A stretch of 32,391 nucleotides of DNA, taken from assembly GCA_009917405.1 (NCBI GenBank), contig QZED01000022.1, positions 1 to 32,391 of the forward strand, written 5' to 3'. The position numbers and the translations under genes were made by a program. Of the stretch, positions 4,432-17,147 are shown piece after piece; position 1 is the stretch's first letter, and every line of letters starts with the position of its first letter. Under the pieces are notes generated by a model. It saw only the letters and a program-made list of their open reading frames with translations, did not search any database and had not been told where the DNA came from. This stretch comes from a bacterium c-19. GTDB lineage: Bacteria; Bacillota_I; Bacilli_A; Erysipelotrichales; Erysipelotrichaceae.

Positions 4432-5544
4432 ATGGAATGGTTGAAATATCTGTTCATTCCTTTTCTGATGTCGGCCTTATTGACGCCGATATTAAAAAAG
4501 ATTGCTTACCAATTAGATATCTATGCAGAGATGAATGAACGAACAATTCATACAAAGAAAATTGCACGTATCGGCGGTGTTGCGATCTATGTATCATTTA
4601 TTATCACTATGGCTATGTTTGTAAAAGTTGATGATGCTTTAAATCGTATTTTGATTGGTGCCAGCGTTATGTTTATCGGTGGTTTAATTGATGATATGTT
4701 GAATTTAAGACCAAAGTATAAGCTTGCATTTCAATGCGCAGCTGCGTTGATTCTCATATCATTCGGCGGTGTTACTTTAGATGCGATTCGCTTGCCGTTC
4801 GGTATTTCTATTGATCTCGGTTTGATTTCACTGCTTGTTACTTTTGTTTGGGTGATCGGTATTACGAATGCAGTTAATCTGATCGATGGCTTAGATGGTT
4901 TAGCAGGCGGAATATCAGTAATTATTCTTGTAGTAATCGCAACGCTTTCCTTATTAGAAGGTCGTTCGGATATTATGATGCTTTCTTTAATATTGGCAGG
5001 CAGCACATTAGGATTTCTTATGTATAATTCTCATCCTGCAAGTATTTTTATGGGAGATTGCGGTGCGCTATTCTTAGGATTTGTAATCTCGGCAATTTCA
5101 CTTTTAGGCTTTAAGAGTTCAACTTTGATTACCCTCGGTTTGCCGATATTATTATTAGGAATTCCTATTTTGGATACAATCAGTGCAATTATACGAAGAA
5201 AACTATCAGGGAAAAGCTTCTCTGATGCAGATAAAAATCATCTTCATCATGTGTTGATGCGTCGCTTCGGACATCGAAATACGGTATTGATTCTGTATGC
5301 AGTTACAGGTTTATTCGGACTGACAGCTTACTTATATATTGTTAATAAATCCCTCGGTTTGATTGCACTCATTGTGATGGCAATCGGCGTGGAGCTGTTC
5401 TTGGAAATTTCGCATATGATTTCCCCGCAGTATCATCCGATCTTATCAGTGATTGATGTGATACGTAAAGCATTGAAAAAACCATCCTTAGAAGATGAAA
5501 TCGAAGAAAAGCTGGAAGAAAAGCTGCCGGAACACGAGATATAG
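4432..5544 (+). CDS. tagO: Undecaprenyl-phosphate GlcNAc-1-phosphate transferase (TagO/WecA family)
   Basis: Integral membrane enzyme that transfers GlcNAc-1-phosphate from UDP-GlcNAc to undecaprenyl phosphate, the first committed step of wall teichoic acid or another wall polymer. The 370-residue protein has about ten membrane segments. Signature motifs are the Asp-Asp pair in IGGLIDDML (residues 87-88), NLIDGLDGLAGG (149-160), GDCGALFLGF (208-217) and the histidine loop HLHHVLMRRFGH (270-281). A strong AAGGAGGTG lies at 4418-4426. Co-transcription with mreB links wall-polymer initiation to the elongation machinery. The charged tail (EEKLEEKLPEHE) is cytoplasmic. Confidence 0.93.
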   Translation: MEWLKYLFIPFLMSALLTPILKKIAYQLDIYAEMNERTIHTKKIARIGGVAIYVSFIITMAMFVKVDDALNRILIGASVMFIGGLIDDMLNLRPKYKLAFQCAAALILISFGGVTLDAIRLPFGISIDLGLISLLVTFVWVIGITNAVNLIDGLDGLAGGISVIILVVIATLSLLEGRSDIMMLSLILAGSTLGFLMYNSHPASIFMGDCGALFLGFVISAISLLGFKSSTLITLGLPILLLGIPILDTISAIIRRKLSGKSFSDADKNHLHHVLMRRFGHRNTVLILYAVTGLFGLTAYLYIVNKSLGLIALIVMAIGVELFLEISHMISPQYHPILSVIDVIRKALKKPSLEDEIEEKLEEKLPEHEI

Positions 5545-5548
5545 AAAT

Positions 5549-5580
5549 AAGGTATTCTTGACGGGATACCTTTTATTATA
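5549..5580 (+). terminator. Terminator of the mreB-tagO operon
   Basis: AAGGTAT (5549-5555) pairs with ATACCTT (5566-5572), followed by T-rich sequence. Confidence 0.85.
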
Positions 5581-5611
5581 TAAAATATGTTTGAAAAGTC
5601 TTTTATGTAAA

Positions 5612-5670
5612 AAACCTCTTTCTGTATAATGTAGTTGCTTGGCAGCTGACCAAAGTGAAGAAAGAGGTTT
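5612..5670. repeat. 12-bp perfect inverted repeat enclosing a TATAAT and an inner palindrome
   Basis: AAACCTCTTTCT (5612-5623) and AGAAAGAGGTTT (5659-5670) are exact reverse complements separated by 35 bases. The loop holds TATAAT (5625-5630) and the near-palindrome TTGGCAGCTGACCAA (5639-5653). The right arm includes an AAAGAGG ribosome-site-like string, followed by a six-codon frame starting at ATG 5676 (MKGIIR). It may be the end of an insertion sequence, a MITE or a structured leader; I cannot name it. Confidence 0.6.
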
Positions 5671-5724
5671 GTTTAATGAAAGGCATAATTAGGTAATTAC
5701 ATAGCCTTATGTATTATCAAATAA

Positions 5725-5750
5725 AAACCGGTTTTCCCGGTTTCTATTTT
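5725..5750. terminator. Bidirectional terminator between tagO and the minus-strand surface genes
   Basis: AAACCGG (5725-5731) pairs with CCGGTTT (5737-5743), with T-runs on both sides (CTATTTTT on plus; TTTTTATTT on minus). Confidence 0.8.
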
Positions 5751-6762
5751 TCACTTATTCTTTTTCTGATTGGATATATAACGCAGAAGCATCCGATACT
5801 GCCCACCATCATCCATAATAATGCATTGGTGAAATCTCCTGTGTTGGCGCCAGTAGTTTGATCTTACGGCTGTCCATTGTTATGATTATTGTCATTTGGA
5901 TAGTCGGGATTGTTATTATCAAGATTTCCTTCATCATCAGGATTGTTATTATCCTCATTAGTATTATCAGGATTATCAGATTCATTATCATTGTTGTTTG
6001 GGTCATCAGATTCAGGTTTACCATTAGTAGGATCATCAGTATCGGTTGGGTCATTATCGTCATTAGGATCAGTCGGATTGTTATCATCATCTCCTGGAGC
6101 AACAGGATTAGGATCGGTCGTATTGTTATCGTCATCTCCCGGATCAACAGGATTAGGATCAGTCGGAGTACCGCCGGTAGCGTTTGCCTCGAAATGAACA
6201 ATAACATTATTTAAATATTTGGGATCTTGCAATTCATCCAAAGTCGGTGGGGTTTCATTCTCATAATAGCCGGCAAATCGATATTCTACTTCAATATCTT
6301 GCGGTTGATTAGATTCTGCATTCACATTAATGGTTCCGTCTGGTGCTTGTTGCCAAGTTCCTTCATCTTTGATGCGATAATATACTACATGAAACGGATA
6401 TTCAGAATCAAATACGACAACTGCGGTTTCATCAGTACTAAAAGTGGGTTTCTCAATTTATGTTTTAGTTCTGATTCTTGCCGTATGGTCAATACAGTGA
6501 TTGGGGTCATAATCTGCACGAAATTTGAAAAGTTGATTGATAAAGAACCGGAGATAGTATTTGCATTCTTCATCACAGCAGTATCTCAACCGTCTACTTT
6601 TAGCGCTAAACTGTTTAATTGATCTATAGGGTCAACAAATTCTATGGTATAGAAATTCATTAATTCCTCAGCGTGTAATGCATAATTCACACCGTATGCA
6701 CCCAATGTTGCAGCGATCAATCCCAAGAATAGAATTGCTGCTTTTCTATATTTCTTTTTCAT
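5744..6762 (-). pseudogene. Disrupted surface protein with NTGD sorting-like tail (paralogue 1)
   Basis: The ATG at 6762 follows GAAGGGA and starts a signal peptide (MKKKYRKAAILFLGLIAATL). Three lesions follow: an in-frame TGA at 6586-6588, a frameshift near 6457-6459 where one A is missing from an A-run, and a TAA at 5864-5866. Reading through all three gives one coherent protein: a region with DTAVMKNANTISGSLSINF, a module starting FHVVYYRIKDEGTWQQ, a long Asp/Asn/Pro repeat stalk, then TTGANTGD, a hydrophobic helix and an RKR tail, ending at the TAG at 5744. The middle module is clearly similar to one in the next gene upstream (6991-8428), so the two are diverged tandem copies. Ligand unknown. 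Confidence 0.8.
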
Positions 6763-8803: not shown

Positions 8804-10681
8804 ATGGAAAAAACAGTAGTATCTGCTTCGGCAAAAGCGGAGAGCTTTTATCATCCCCGCTTATTTGTGGTTTTTACCGGTGCATTTTTACTGGGATGCT
8901 ATGACGGACTTTGTGCCTATGTATTTGCTTTTTTATATCTTGCGTATTTTTATATGCGCGATGAAAAAGAATGCCGTATTGCAAGTATTGCGATATTGCT
9001 GGGTTCTTGTTTTTGTGGTTTTATCACTACTTATTTTTATGCGCTTGGGATGACCATATTTTTTTTAGTGATTCATGGTCTACGTTTATTTGATCAAAAT
9101 GTTTACCGCCGTTTACCGATGATTGCCGCATGCTTAAGCATTCCTTACGGAATCTATGCTTTTCATCTGGATTTAAGAGTTTTGTGTATTGCTTTCTTTG
9201 CTTACTTGTTGGCAATGATCGATCATCGTGAAATTGGTTGGATACAAAAAAAATTAGTTTTGACTTCACAAATATACGGTATCTTCTTTGTGACGCTGGC
9301 GCTATTGAGTTTAAATTGGATAGGCGGAGCGTTAGGAGAATGGCTGTTTGCGGCGTTTTTATTTACAGCGGCATTCTTTTGTGAGCCGTTGGTGCTGATC
9401 ATCTTGATGGGTTTAGTTTCTGTAGCGACACCTACTCTTGTATTATCCTCGGTAATAGTTTTGGCAACCGTATGGATCTCAATTATGAAACAAGAAAAAT
9501 ATTTGTTATGCAGCGGTTTGTTATTAATGATTTTATGGTTTGACTTATCATTACCGAATACTGCATTGTTTCTCATCGGATCGCTTACTTCGTTTCTCTA
9601 TGATGAAAAGAAATTGCCGTTTCATAGTGAACGACATCGACAACTACCGAATAATCAAGTCTCGACTCATATTTTAAATAAGCAGATTAATCATTTTTCC
9701 GGAATATTTACGGCATTATCTGATTACTATGAACAAATATCCGATGTTGAAGCTCAAATGCTTTCTGATATGGCAAAGGCATTGAAGTATTGTGCAGATA
9801 CTTTAAAAAAGGTTGACACGACACAATCACAAAAGCAACGGATATTAAAGGCTTTGGAAGGATACCAGTATGAGGTGGATGTGCTTGAAATTGAGCAGCA
9901 GGAAGACGGGCATATGGCAATTGAACTGGAAATTCGCAATATTAAGAAAAACGAGATCCAACAGACATTGTTGCCGTTGCTAGAGGTGCTGACTCATGAA
10001 CATTTGAATATTACGCAGCTTCATCATAAGCGTTTTACAAGAGGAGCACATGTGATTACATTGGAAAATCAAGTGCCATTTCAAATTGATTCCTATGCAG
10101 ACGCACAAAAGAACATGTATGAGAGCTGCGGAGATACATTCTCGATATTCCGATATCGCAATACGGTCATTTCCATGATTTCCGACGGCATGGGAAGCGG
10201 AGAACATGCGGCAACCTCATCACGATTGATTACGAATTTGTTTCAACGTATGGTTGTCAGCGGAATTCCTAAGGCAGATGCGATCAAATGCATTAATAAG
10301 CTGCTGCAAAGTGATGCGTATGCGACATTGGATGTGGTTTGTTTTGATTGTGCGGCAGGTAAGGCTTATATTTTTAAATCAGCAGCCTGTCCGACATTTC
10401 TTATCCGAAATCATGAGCTTTATGAAGTAAACGGCAGTTCCTTGCCGGTAGGAATAGTTTCATCGATAGAGCCTGATTGCTTTGTGGCTGATTTACAAGA
10501 CGGAGATGAATACTTAATGATCAGTGACGGTATTTTTATGGATGAAATCTATGAATGGTTGAAAAATCGCAGTTGTGAAAATGCGAAAACATCAATAGAA
10601 GACTTGATGGAAGTTCTTCGCAGACGACAGCGCTTGGATGATTCTACGGCGGTATTAAGCAAGGTACACAGTGTGCTGTAG
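8804..10681 (+). CDS. spoIIE: SpoIIE-like membrane PP2C-type serine phosphatase
   Basis: In spore formers SpoIIE dephosphorylates SpoIIAA to release sigma-F in the forespore and sits at the polar septum. Here residues 1-270 contain about ten hydrophobic segments, and residues 270-380 are a coiled/regulatory region. From about residue 400 there is a PP2C/SpoIIE domain with metal-binding ISDGMGSGEHA (near 459), LMISDGIFMDE (near 571) and a final DDSTAVL. At 625 residues it is shorter than the Bacillus protein (about 830), mainly in the central region. AGAGGTGAT (8790-8798) sets the start. No spoIIA operon or sigma-F gene is in the window, so a role in true sporulation is inference; a phosphatase in another partner-switching pathway is the alternative. 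Confidence 0.85.
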   Translation: MEKTVVSASAKAESFYHPRLFVVFTGAFLLGCYDGLCAYVFAFLYLAYFYMRDEKECRIASIAILLGSCFCGFITTYFYALGMTIFFLVIHGLRLFDQNVYRRLPMIAACLSIPYGIYAFHLDLRVLCIAFFAYLLAMIDHREIGWIQKKLVLTSQIYGIFFVTLALLSLNWIGGALGEWLFAAFLFTAAFFCEPLVLIILMGLVSVATPTLVLSSVIVLATVWISIMKQEKYLLCSGLLLMILWFDLSLPNTALFLIGSLTSFLYDEKKLPFHSERHRQLPNNQVSTHILNKQINHFSGIFTALSDYYEQISDVEAQMLSDMAKALKYCADTLKKVDTTQSQKQRILKALEGYQYEVDVLEIEQQEDGHMAIELEIRNIKKNEIQQTLLPLLEVLTHEHLNITQLHHKRFTRGAHVITLENQVPFQIDSYADAQKNMYESCGDTFSIFRYRNTVISMISDGMGSGEHAATSSRLITNLFQRMVVSGIPKADAIKCINKLLQSDAYATLDVVCFDCAAGKAYIFKSAACPTFLIRNHELYEVNGSSLPVGIVSSIEPDCFVADLQDGDEYLMISDGIFMDEIYEWLKNRSCENAKTSIEDLMEVLRRRQRLDDSTAVLSKVHSVL

Positions 10682-10711
10682 CTTTGATATGAATTTAAAA
10701 TCAAATGTATC

Positions 10712-10740
10712 AAACGGCGGGTAATCGATTCGCCGTTTTT
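10712..10740 (+). terminator. Terminator of spoIIE
   Basis: AAACGGCG (10712-10719) pairs with CGCCGTTT (10731-10738), followed by T residues. Confidence 0.9.
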
Positions 10741-10883
10741 AAGTACAATTAACGGAAATGAATCTAGGAAGCAGAATTGAATTGAGGTATTATTGCAGCT
10801 TTTTTATCGCAGATACGGCAACTGAGTGATTTATATTCCGGCTGTTTTTGAGTTATTTGAATGATTCGTTTTGCTCCTGATAC

Positions 10884-12740: not shown

Positions 12741-12759
12741 CCCTTTTTCTTGGAGGCTT

Positions 12760-14400
12760 ATGAAAAAGAATGATATTGTGAAAGGAACTTGTGTCAGCTA
12801 TACTTATCAAGGCTTTGGTGTGGTAAAGGTCGACGGATTTCCATTATTTGTGAAAAATTTAATCTTGGGTGAAGAAGCAGAAATCATTGTGACAATGGTG
12901 AAGAAGCAGTTTGGATACGGAAGAGTAAAGCAACTTTTGACAAGAAGCGAAGATCGTGTTGAACCGCTGTGTCCACTTGCCGGTAAATGCGGCGGATGTC
13001 AGATCCAGCATATGTCTAGAAAACATCAGGCATTCTTTAAAAAGGAACAAGTGGAAAGTGTAATGAGACGCATCGCTCACATTGATACAGAGGTTTCTGA
13101 TGTTTTGATGATGGAAAATGGCTGGAATTATCGCAACAAAGCGCAGGTACCGTTTCAGTTACAAAATGATCGAGTGGTTTGTGGCTTTTATCGTTTGCAT
13201 TCCAATGAATCGGTGGATATGAATGAGTGTATGATTCAGCATCCCGTAATGAATCGTGTATTACAGATTGTGAAAGGGTATTTAAGTCAAAAGCATTCGG
13301 TGGGGAGCTTGCGTCATTTATTGATTAAATATGCGAGAAGCAGTGATGAAATTATGGTTGTTTTTATCACCTCAGATGCGAATGGCATGGACTGGGAACC
13401 ACTGGTGCAGCTTTTATGTGAAAAAGTTCCGCAGGTAAAAAGCGTTATGTTAAATATTAATCAGCGCGGTGATAATGTGATCTTAGGTGAGGAAGAAATT
13501 TTATTGTACGGTCAGCCGTATATCAGTGATCGAATTTTTGATCTGTCCTTTCGTATTGCAATGAAATCTTTTTATCAAGTGAATCCGCAGCAGACTGAGG
13601 TATTGTATCGCACGGTAATGCAGTATGCGCAGCTGAGTGGAAGTGAGACGGTTCTGGATTGTTATTGCGGGGTCGGAACGATTGGCTTGTGTCTAGCGAA
13701 GCAAGCAAAGCAGGTGATCGGTATTGAAATTATTCCTGAAGCTATTGAAAACGCGAAGGAAAATGCTAAGCGTAATCATATTGAAAACGCGCAGTTTATT
13801 TGCGCTGATGCAAAAGCTTATGCAAAGGAATTGAGTGATCATAAACAAAAGATTGATGTTGTAATCGTAGATCCGCCGCGCAAGGGGTGTGATGAGCAGG
13901 TGTTGGAAAGTATTGCGAGTATGGCGCCGCAGCGAATTGTTTATGTGTCTTGTGATGTCGCAACACAAGCGAGAGACATTGAACGTTTGAAGCGGTACGG
14001 CTATCATGCGGCAGCGGTGCAGCCTGTGGATATGTTTCCGCAGACACAGCATGTTGAGACGGTTGTAATGCTTTCCCACAAAAAACCCGACAGCGTAATC
14101 AACGTAAAAGTCGAGTTTGGCGAGGGTGAGGGAAAAGTGCCGCTTGATAATATTGCCAAGAGAGCCGAAGCGTACAAACCGAAAGAGCGAGTTACATATA
14201 AGATGATTAAGGAATACATAGAAGCGAAGTATGGCTTCAAAGTACATACCGCATATATCGCAGAGGTTAAAAGGGAGTTAGGATTGCCGATGTATGATGC
14301 CCCTAATGCGGTAGAGGAATTGAAACAGCCGAGGAAGCATCCGACGGCGGAGAAAGCGGAAGCGATAAAGGATGCACTTAGATATTTTGAGGTAATTTAA
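12760..14400 (+). CDS. rlmD: 23S rRNA (uracil-5-)-methyltransferase RlmD/RlmCD with extra C-terminal tail
   Basis: SAM-dependent methyltransferase that makes 5-methyluridine in 23S rRNA. Order: N-terminal TRAM domain (residues 1-60); iron-sulfur cysteines in CPLAGKCGGCQ (near 71, 77, 80) plus Cys in NECMIQHP (near 157); SAM loop VLDCYCGVGTIGL (near 302); the VDPPRKGCDE motif (near 370); catalytic Cys in YVSCD (near 397). Canonical proteins end shortly after HVETVVMLS. This one continues about 100 residues (DSVINVKVEFGEGEGK to YFEVI) with a predicted helix-turn-helix-like stretch (VTYKMIKEYIEAKYGFKVH) and a visibly different codon choice. I recall similar tails on RlmD proteins whose gene holds an integrated conjugative element. 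TGGAGG lies seven bases before ATG 12760. Confidence 0.92.
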   Translation: MKKNDIVKGTCVSYTYQGFGVVKVDGFPLFVKNLILGEEAEIIVTMVKKQFGYGRVKQLLTRSEDRVEPLCPLAGKCGGCQIQHMSRKHQAFFKKEQVESVMRRIAHIDTEVSDVLMMENGWNYRNKAQVPFQLQNDRVVCGFYRLHSNESVDMNECMIQHPVMNRVLQIVKGYLSQKHSVGSLRHLLIKYARSSDEIMVVFITSDANGMDWEPLVQLLCEKVPQVKSVMLNINQRGDNVILGEEEILLYGQPYISDRIFDLSFRIAMKSFYQVNPQQTEVLYRTVMQYAQLSGSETVLDCYCGVGTIGLCLAKQAKQVIGIEIIPEAIENAKENAKRNHIENAQFICADAKAYAKELSDHKQKIDVVIVDPPRKGCDEQVLESIASMAPQRIVYVSCDVATQARDIERLKRYGYHAAAVQPVDMFPQTQHVETVVMLSHKKPDSVINVKVEFGEGEGKVPLDNIAKRAEAYKPKERVTYKMIKEYIEAKYGFKVHTAYIAEVKRELGLPMYDAPNAVEELKQPRKHPTAEKAEAIKDALRYFEVI

Positions 14401-14675
14401 TGGAGGAAAGGATTTATCAGAGTGCAGAGCATATAGTTGGGATACATCAAAAAGCCTATGAGGTTTATTTGCCATTGGTTGAAGATGTGTGTAGCAGAAC
14501 CGTGTCAGAGGCTGAATTATCACATTGGCTTGATTATCTACTGGACTTTGCATGTGACGAAAAAATATTGGGGTTGTATAAGAAAGTGTGTAGAAAATAT
14601 TTATATGTATATCCGAGGTGCATCAAATCTTATATTGAAGCGTATCGGGAAATGTGGGAGGATGAAAACAAATGA
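14400..14675 (+). CDS. Small hypothetical protein coupled to rlmD
   Basis: A 91-residue, mostly helical, acidic protein with HWLDYLLDFACDEKILGLY in its centre. Its ATG shares a base with the rlmD stop (TAATG), and GAGG sits just before it, so translation is coupled. It is intact, unlike the three genes that follow. I cannot assign a function. Its position directly after the rlmD tail suggests that it belongs to the element that supplied the tail. Confidence 0.75.
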   Translation: MEERIYQSAEHIVGIHQKAYEVYLPLVEDVCSRTVSEAELSHWLDYLLDFACDEKILGLYKKVCRKYLYVYPRCIKSYIEAYREMWEDENK

Positions 14676-14753: not shown

Positions 14754-15594
14754 ATGGAAAAAATAATTAAGGATACAATTCATGCGAATGGGATAGATAT
14801 TGGTACTTATACACAAGATTTTGAAAATGAATTTATTTCATTGACGGATATTGCCCGATATAAGAGCGATGATCCAACGGCGGTTATTCAAAACTGGATG
14901 AGAAATCGGGATGTTATAGAATTTTTGGGATTATGGGAAAGACTTCATAATCCAGATTTTAAACTCCTTCGAGGGGTTTAGAAAACAGGCAGGGGCAAAT
15001 GCATTTACAATGTCACCAAAGAAGTGGATAGAAGCTACGGACGCTATTGGTATTGTTTCAAAGTCGGGACGTTATGGTGGTACGTATGCCCATAGTGATA
15101 TTGCCATGTCTTTTGCAACTTGGATTTCTCCTGAATTTCAGTTATATATTATGAAGGATTACAGGAGATTAAAGACGGATGAGAATAGTCGGTTATCTCT
15201 AAATTGGAACTTAAACAGGGAAATTTCCAAGTTAAATTACAGGATACATACGGATGCCATTAAGGACAATTTGATTCCAGCAGAATTAACCCCTGCGCAG
15301 ATAGCTTATACATATGCTAATGAGGCAGATATGTTAAATGTGGTTCTGTTTGGAAAAACAGCGAAACAATGGAAAGATGAAAATCCAACCGTAAAAGAAA
15401 ATATGCGGGATGTGGCAACGTTGAATCAATTACTTGTGCTTGCGAATTTGGAAAGTTATAATGCAGTATTGATTAATCAGGGAAAGATTCAGAAAGAGCG
15501 GATGAGATTGTTGCGCCAATTAGCAGTTCAACAGCTACAAATGTTGGAGGCAGTAAGCTTGAATAATCTTCCCCAATTAACAGAACGGACATAA
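14754..15594 (+). pseudogene. KilA-N domain phage-type protein, frameshifted
   Basis: The ATG at 14754 has AGGAGG five bases upstream. The first frame gives a KilA-N domain start (FISLTDIARYKSDDPTAVIQ, then NWMRNRDVIEFLGLWERLHNP) and ends at TAG 14979-14981. The same protein continues in another frame from FEGFRKQAGANAFTMSPKKW through GGTYAHSDIAMSFATWISPE to ERT at 15594. The break lies near 14964-14970. KilA-N proteins are DNA-binding antirepressor-like proteins of phages and mobile elements. The C-terminal half is open for nearly 200 codons. Confidence 0.85.
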
Positions 15595-15640: not shown

Positions 15641-16476
15641 ATGAGAGGAAAAACAATACGACATTTTTTAATTGATGGACAGGTAGATGGTAGATGGGCC
15701 AGTGAGCTTTCTAATTGGATAGGTAAGGCATATAAAATTCCACGTACATATATTAATCAATGTACGGATAGAGATGATTTGAGTAATACGGGGTGTATTT
15801 TTTATTCGGGCGTAATGATGAAACAGATGAGGAGCAAGTTTATATAGGAGAGGCTGAAAATATTTTTAACAGACTTAAACAACATCTTTCTGAAAAAGAT
15901 TTCTGGACAGAGTGCATAGTGTTTATTAGCAAAGATAATAATTTGAACAAAGCACATATAAAATATTTGGAAAATTATCTTTATATTTTGGCGAAAGAAT
16001 CTAAAAGATATGAGGTAGTAAACAGCAATGTGCCTACAGAAGCATCAATATCTGAGATGGATCGTGCAGAAATGGATGAGTTCATTGATAATATGCGGTT
16101 GATTTTAGGAGTGTTGGGACATAAAATTTTAGAACCGACTATAAAGAGGAAAAGTGATGAGAAAGAAAATCTTTACATTTTACAAGACCGTACTGGAATC
16201 AAGGCGAGTGGTAAACCGATTTCAGAAGGTTTCGCGGTGTTGAAAGGTTCTAAGATTGCTGATAATGTAACGACATCTTTATCAAAGTCTGTTATCAATA
16301 AACGACAGCTGTTATTTGATAAAGGCATTGTTGATGAGAACTTTACTTTTACTCAGGATTGGGCATTTACGAGTCCTTCACTTGCGGCAGCAATAGTTGC
16401 AGGGTATAGTATTAACGGTAGGAATGCATGGAAGAATGGAAAAGGAATATCATTAAAAGAAATAGAAGAGGAATAA
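15641..16476 (+). pseudogene. GIY-YIG nuclease-like protein with DUF4357-type C-terminus, frameshifted
   Basis: The first frame (ATG 15641, AAGGAG upstream) runs MRGKTIRHFLIDGQVDGRWA to LSNTG and then diverges. The second frame supplies VYFLFGRNDETDEEQVYIGE, the GIY-YIG core, followed by NIFNRLKQHLSEKDFWTECI. A conserved C-terminal region (SGKPISEGFAVLKGSKIA onwards) resembles DUF4357. One missing G in the GGGG run at 15790-15793 explains the break; five would restore a protein of about 278 residues. Members are stand-alone accessory nucleases often found near restriction or mobile genes. Confidence 0.85.
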
Positions 16477-16644
16477 AAAATGATTTTTGTGAGAAAGAAG
16501 TAATACCGTTGAAAGTGTGGTTCTGATAGTGAGAAAATAAACGCGCAATTTACTTGTTTATAAATATTTTGATATTATATTGCTGCTTATGAACTTTCTG
16601 AGGATACTCATGATATAATATAGAAAATATATTCATATTGTAGG

Positions 16645-16976
16645 ATGAATAACCTTATGGATGATAATGATACCGTAGTATTTGAAGATGGGAATTTAGA
16701 CTTGATGCAACAATTTTGTCGCAGAGAGATACCATATGGCTGAGCGCTAATCAAATGGCAGATCTTTTTAAGCGTGATGAAAAGACAATAAGAAAACATA
16801 TTAATAATGTGTTCAAAGAAAATGTGCAGATAGAGATAACAAAACGTAATTTTTACATATTGCGGGTATCAAGCAAAGAATACCATTTTTTAGATATTAT
16901 TATTTTTGTAAGGTATAGGGTAAAGTCTCAACGCAGCGTATATTTTCGTAAATGGGCAAGTAAGATTCTAAAGTAA
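16645..16976 (+). pseudogene. RhuM-family (virulence-associated) protein remnant
   Basis: The ATG at 16645 starts MNNLMDDNDTVVFEDGNLDL, which leaves frame near 16700 and stops at TGA 16741. The other frame resumes DATILSQRDTIWLSANQMAD, then KRDEKTIRKHINNVFKE, the classic RhuM start, and continues with altered sequence to RYRVKSQRSVYFRKWASKIL at 16976, where it stops. Intact homologues are about 330 residues, so most of the C-terminus is gone. The 16477-16644 gap before it contains a TATAAT-type -10 (near 16614) and no gene. Confidence 0.8.
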
Positions 16977-17147
16977 GTCAGATGGAAAGAAAAGTATAGT
17001 AAAATTAATTCATCATTATTGCATTGATTTGCTACGACAAATAGAGTTTAATATTGATGTTTTCGGATTAGGCAAGTCTGGTACTAACACGTTTTACTTA
17101 TGAAGCCAAAGGATATCTATGTTATAATTAAAAAGGTGATGAAAATT

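Follow-up and report, generated by a model that had tools for sequence, protein, structure and literature searches.

Why the rRNA methyltransferase RlmD of bacterium c-19 should run well past its expected end is the question raised by the window, the 32,391-nucleotide stretch of contig QZED01000022.1 analysed here. By homology, the gene starts at position 12757 on the forward strand, and its frame is open through 14400. The TIGR00479 model ends at RlmD residue 434, at HVE, and PDB alignment to pneumococcal RlmCD gives the same end point. As a first-pass annotation of this DNA had noticed, the protein continues beyond HVETVVMLS; the extension measures 107 residues. We propose, with a probability of roughly 0.83, that it belongs to the left end of a cassette that integrated site-specifically at the codon for a catalytic glutamate, and that the tail passes from a large serine recombinase (LSR) to RlmD.

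The host-derived part of rlmD (12757–14055, forward strand; TIGR00479, E 1e-134) reaches to the HV of HVETVV and up to this point shares 91% DNA identity with the sister species, G004. Foreign DNA begins at base 14056 with the crossover core GAGACGG (14056–14062), the first conserved run of bases in more than 100 contexts. DNA before the junction is fully variable, comprising the RlmD of many hosts, serine recombinases, and other ORFs; from GAGACGG onward it is conserved, with few variants, which fall in one diverged tail subgroup. The element-encoded end of RlmD (14056–14400, including the stop) comprises ETVVMLS and the 107-residue tail (phrog_27283, E 4e-8). The first-pass annotation was right that insertion of an element had exchanged the 3' end of rlmD for sequence of the element's own, as the GAGACGG junction and the differing ends in congeners indicate, but it placed the foreign part from 14085; ETVVMLS is itself supplied by the element. 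The GAG of the core encodes a glutamate that aligns with E443 of Streptococcus pneumoniae RlmCD (PDB 5xj1), the general base of the methylation reaction (PMC6235398, PMC5614603). The element thus enters rlmD through the catalytic codon and restores both this codon and the end motif, so that the enzyme gains a tail and is not damaged.

Native RlmD ends short in congeners (VECVCLLEHSDIINKQ, VECVTLIVKK, and VECVILIVRK, each followed by a stop). Four of six congeners have an rlmD that carries no tail and one other has a different tail, while across the order the tail family is present in 57 of 244 genomes. The comparison of rlmD ends suggested at the outset hence gives a clear answer: the same tail in all relatives, with no linked mobile genes, is not what is found, since tail-less congeners exist and serine recombinases are linked to the tail elsewhere. 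An origin of the tail as an ancestral RlmD domain is ruled out by the tail-less congeners and by a mismatch in identity, tails being 93–98% identical across hosts whose RlmDs are only 40–58% identical. Chance read-through or misassembly is likewise ruled out, the same junction recurring at about 50 other RlmD loci.

In the sister species, RlmD is 92% identical and the same site holds another island, headed by a different, degenerate tail. That tail belongs to a second family, and the island (L127, G004:C11) also encodes a 350-residue Fic-like protein and has three genes resembling RhuM, of which one is truncated. The window genome itself encodes two further RlmD paralogues (G000:C119:26558-28149 and G000:C10:3858-5177). 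A decayed tail-like remnant lies behind one of these, and two distant serine recombinases (C10:7592-8857 and 9706-10863) lie near the other.

Close relatives of the tail number in the hundreds, and the extension of RlmD is therefore not a chance product; the tails placed in context came from GTDB and viral contigs. Matches also occur on 97 plasmid records, 90 of them from Enterococcus, mostly at less than 60% identity. One tail relic of about 57% identity (L134 8001-8279, NZ_KR936172.1; hypothetical protein WP_002294510.1) is flanked by spw and lsa(E)-lnu(B) within a multiresistance cluster of pY13, which may at one time have belonged to a tail-bearing element. Searches with the tail gave no Pfam and no PDB match, and Foldseek with the tail model gave nothing significant. 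The predicted structure has three core helices at low-to-moderate confidence (pLDDT 63), so that of the helix-turn-helix-like stretch reported by the first-pass annotation the helices are suggested, but no match to a known family or structure supports it. The altered codon use that it had also reported is real but mild, the tail having a GC3 of 0.49 against 0.41 for rlmD and 0.38–0.45 for three neighbouring genes.

At nine loci first seen as non-RlmD fusions, the carrier of the tail is an LSR with resolvase, recombinase, and zinc-ribbon domains. Within the main LSR clade the tail is in frame at the C-terminus in 10 of 10 loci, and in a model of an LSR–tail protein the recombinase is complete and is connected by a linker of low confidence to the tail, which forms a small helical domain apart. 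Other LSRs of the main group have short host-like ends after the core (VETVCLLSRK and VECVVLIQRKHI). Fusion of LSR and tail is not universal, since all four loci of a second clade have LSR and tail in different frames. The genes of this second, distant clade (L060 8200-10050, L065 1809-3641, L092 233-2083, and L103 8200-10014) end at the same core, reading through it in a frame other than that of the tail. The swap of ends between LSR and RlmD is the reciprocal exchange published for conjugative elements that integrate into rumA.

In the mechanism that we propose, the cassette integrates at GAGACGG in rlmD and supplies its own ETVVMLS together with the 107-residue tail. In other genomes the tail is the in-frame C-terminus of the LSR, read across the attachment site, as the circular or tandem form would have it; integration thus hands it from the LSR to RlmD, and the LSR receives a short end from the host. 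An att-plus-tail end of this kind also heads short cassettes that encode no recombinase; these are stacked in tandem at rlmD and are probably mobilised in trans by rlmD-type LSRs. Homologous recombination between tails may sometimes rearrange cassettes, as in the chimeric tail of the window. The window genome has no rlmD-type LSR, its nearest LSRs being 25–27% identical, and mobility there is therefore historical or helper-dependent. Free-standing tails, a further point against the proposal, have no obvious start codon.

Thirteen loci contain two tandem att–tail sites, 1.6–4.5 kb apart. Each unit between the tails consists of one to four genes, all on the same strand and none of them for a recombinase. 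Several cassettes carry defence genes (PARIS-like, ietAS, HerA-DUF4297, restriction-modification, and YhcG): their contents include AriA/AriB of PARIS, IetS, HerA with DUF4297, and a putative restriction enzyme paired with a DNA methyltransferase, while nucleases of the YhcG/DUF1016 type adjoin right cassette ends. Whole cassettes are common to pairs of loci from att to att, over 3.9 kb in L049 and L036, 2.8 kb in L050 and L089, and 3.1 kb in L062 and L103. The left neighbours of these three are unrelated, and on the right too the shared stretch stops at the core, beyond which comes either a tail, of one family or the other, or an rlmD end of native type. Among alignments between loci, 859 of 1844 start within 15 bp of the core. 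Such shared units look like products of site-specific recombination in trans, by which the cassettes would have moved. The last position before the core is repeatedly occupied by YhcG/DUF1016 nucleases and elsewhere by RhuM (right ends, for example in L046, L059, L071, L081, L092, and L110); rlmD-end-like DNA (TGTGGGGATATGTTCT...CATGTGGAGACGG) follows. A PADLOC comparison of regions downstream and upstream of rlmD was unusable as a measure of enrichment, its control being inflated by redundant models and a housekeeping UvrD helicase, and our statements on defence refer to named gene contents only. Among gut Firmicutes, tail-bearing cassettes are common, and anti-phage genes are present in several of the examined ones.

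The island in the window is a decayed cassette of this recombinase-free kind, with GAGACGG and a tail on the left, the next core on the right, no recombinase, and a unit shared with other loci. All its features lie on the forward strand. The tail is followed by a 91-residue ORF (14400–14675) and by a KilA-N gene in two pieces. The N-terminal piece (14754–14981, PF04383) ends in a frameshift relative to L081, in which the gene (5317-5856) is continuous across the break; the C-terminal piece (15010–15594, PF04383 and phrog_2657) has 94% amino acid identity to its counterpart in L050. Next comes a GIY-YIG/DUF4357 gene (15793–16476; PF14267, phrog_12629, and, below the gathering score, PF01541) that is split across two overlapping frames, its 5' part lying in the other frame (15641-15847). 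A second attachment site (16505–16546), encoding TVESVVLIVRK and a stop, marks the left end of an older cassette and is 95% identical to DNA at RlmD paralogue ends (L019 and L133). The right part of the island, its end shared with the sister species, holds the remnant of a truncated RhuM gene in two pieces (16716–17070, PF13310). KilA-N, GIY-YIG/DUF4357, and RhuM are the only matches among the island's ORFs, which include no conjugation or mobilisation genes, and the state of all three bears out the earlier impression of a decayed island. No clean attR was found at the right side of the island, because this side is older than the left end and decayed.

The cassette of tail, 91-residue ORF, and KilA-N gene also occurs in L081, L110, L050, and L122. 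Within it, the window tail is chimeric: to about 14348 it follows the main tail clade (L045, L112, and the first tail of L081), and from about 14370 the inner cassette of L081, with the crossover zone at 14349–14376. Such a chimera would result from one crossover between two tails, for example one that removed an upstream cassette. The intactness of tail and neighbouring ORF amid decay had been taken as a possible sign of function. For the tail, purifying selection on the family agrees with this; in the window genome itself, intactness says little because the graft is recent.

What the tail does must be considered in the light of that selection. The median dN/dS over the whole tail is 0.088 (77 pairs), which points to purifying selection on the family, and because it is the protein that has been kept, the tail is probably more than a spacer. 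Our tentative suggestion is that it serves the LSR as an accessory domain, small, helical, and DNA-binding, which would tune the activity or direction of the recombinase and be parked on RlmD, under the rlmD promoter, when the element is integrated. The searches for family and fold gave no match in favour of DNA binding. An accessory role is the most economical since the LSR is the protein to which the tail is joined when the element is excised or in tandem, and it is plausible because engineered fusions of integrases to recombination directionality factors switch the direction of recombination (PMC5737554). The natural LSR–tail fusion is the sole feature seen here that is in common with such factors.

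The main rival, which we consider unlikely, is a direct action of the tail on RlmD or the ribosome, whereby it would regulate methylation, protect the target site, or make the host dependent on the element. Strong purifying selection would suit this role, as would the finding that 52 of 52 RlmD–tail fusions are in frame, but a fixed crossover base explains the frame conservation, and the same tail is found on LSRs and other upstream ORFs. Site protection in particular fits poorly with the tandem arrays, in which tailed sites do take further cassettes. Solved RlmCD structures (PDB 5xj1) cover residues 1–454 of the 543-residue protein, and deletion of residues 455–543 raised in vitro activity by about 25% (PMC5614603). 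This would favour an action on the enzyme, but the effect is small, and the RlmCD core alone is active. Residues 455–543 resemble the tail in length and place, the two features on which they were compared.

It also seems doubtful that the tail protein is functionless, its frame open only to spare RlmD and its first 30–45 bases important as attachment-site DNA. Synonymous variation is indeed lowest in the first ten tail codons (0.20 bits, versus about 0.4–1.0 later), as expected for an attachment site, and broken tails exist (L055, L110, L122, and the degenerate tail of the sister species). Yet the low dN/dS holds over the whole tail, and conserved residues lie far from the attachment site even in families that are 32–33% identical. 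To spare RlmD, moreover, a short stop would be enough, as in the VESVVLIVRK end of the older cassette in the window.

The first-pass annotation had further treated the tail and the 91-residue ORF as a coupled pair. The overlap on which this was based is confirmed, the intact ORF starting inside the rlmD stop codon (TAATG), and it is kept in L081. The ORF itself has no family match and is found in two of 392 genomes, one of them the window genome; among viral contigs, plasmids, phages, and the 392 genomes, its homologues are the cassette copies and one distant relative (36%) only. This rarity rules out a conserved companion of the tail. A dedicated pair is unlikely since the ORF is rare and accompanies few tails, since each decays independently of the other (a broken tail with an intact ORF in L110, the reverse in L050), and since the window tail was recently spliced onto the cassette that carries the ORF. 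A toxin–antitoxin or addiction pair, to which small overlapping ORFs might point, is very improbable on the same grounds, neither a conserved linkage nor a match to any toxin–antitoxin family having been found for the tail and the ORF. The ORF is best read as cassette cargo, not a required partner.

Insertion of elements into rlmD with exchange of gene ends is already known. SCCmec elements employ serine recombinases, target the 3' end of the rRNA methyltransferase gene rlmH, and form tandem composites, all of which has its counterpart here. However, the target here is rlmD, not rlmH, with no ccr genes at the window site and no recombinase ORF in the island, and SCC is not known to append a tail domain. 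Streptococcal ICEs that integrate into rumA and have a single serine integrase exchange the 3' part of rumA with that of the integrase gene (Ambroset et al. 2016, PMC4701971). The window insertion resembles these, and rumA/rlmD-type ICEs and IMEs generally, in its position at the rlmD/rumA 3' end and in the exchange of gene ends. Unlike them, the island has no integrase or conjugation genes; a serine integrase that shares the att site from the opposite end is absent there and present in relatives. A portable shared tail domain and recombinase-free arrays are not described for rumA ICEs in the passages of that paper considered here.

When CTn5 inserts, rumA acquires a C-terminus from the element (CD1844A) that is similar to the one in an Enterococcus RumA homologue (2015, PMC4320837). 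By that description the host gene is fused, as here, to an element ORF, but CTn5 is a full conjugative element some 45 kb long and the window cassette is small. In the myxophage Mx8, attP lies inside int and integration swaps the C-terminus of the integrase, changing its activity (PMC4701971). That integrase is of the tyrosine type, and the part lost is not known to reach a host enzyme. Streptococcus suis 'rum' phages (e.g. OP662530.1) have the rum site and a related RlmD tail in common with the window (44% identity over query residues 36–107), but they are whole phages and their tail is divergent. As for integrons, the recombinases linked to the tail are of the serine type, and there is no IntI-like ORF among the family matches of the island. 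What is apparently new is the tail as the left end of short (1.6–4.5 kb) recombinase-free cassettes in tandem arrays. Within the open-access library searched, no paper was found that describes the tail as a portable domain in common use, or arrays at rlmD of cassettes that bear defence genes and lack a recombinase.

The recurrent extra C-terminus on an rRNA methyltransferase would thus be explained as the footprint of site-specific integration through a catalytic codon. A natural integrase–tail fusion that is undone by integration would bear on the directional control of serine integrases. The gene rlmD would also be a storage site, and one short tail would serve as a search handle for defence cassettes. 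More speculatively, the rlmD 3' end in gut Firmicutes could be an integron-like platform, on which a trans-acting serine recombinase inserts and stacks recombinase-free cassettes, many with defence genes, and in which the portable tail, as long as it is part of the recombinase, regulates it, and on integration comes to lie on RlmD under the rlmD promoter.
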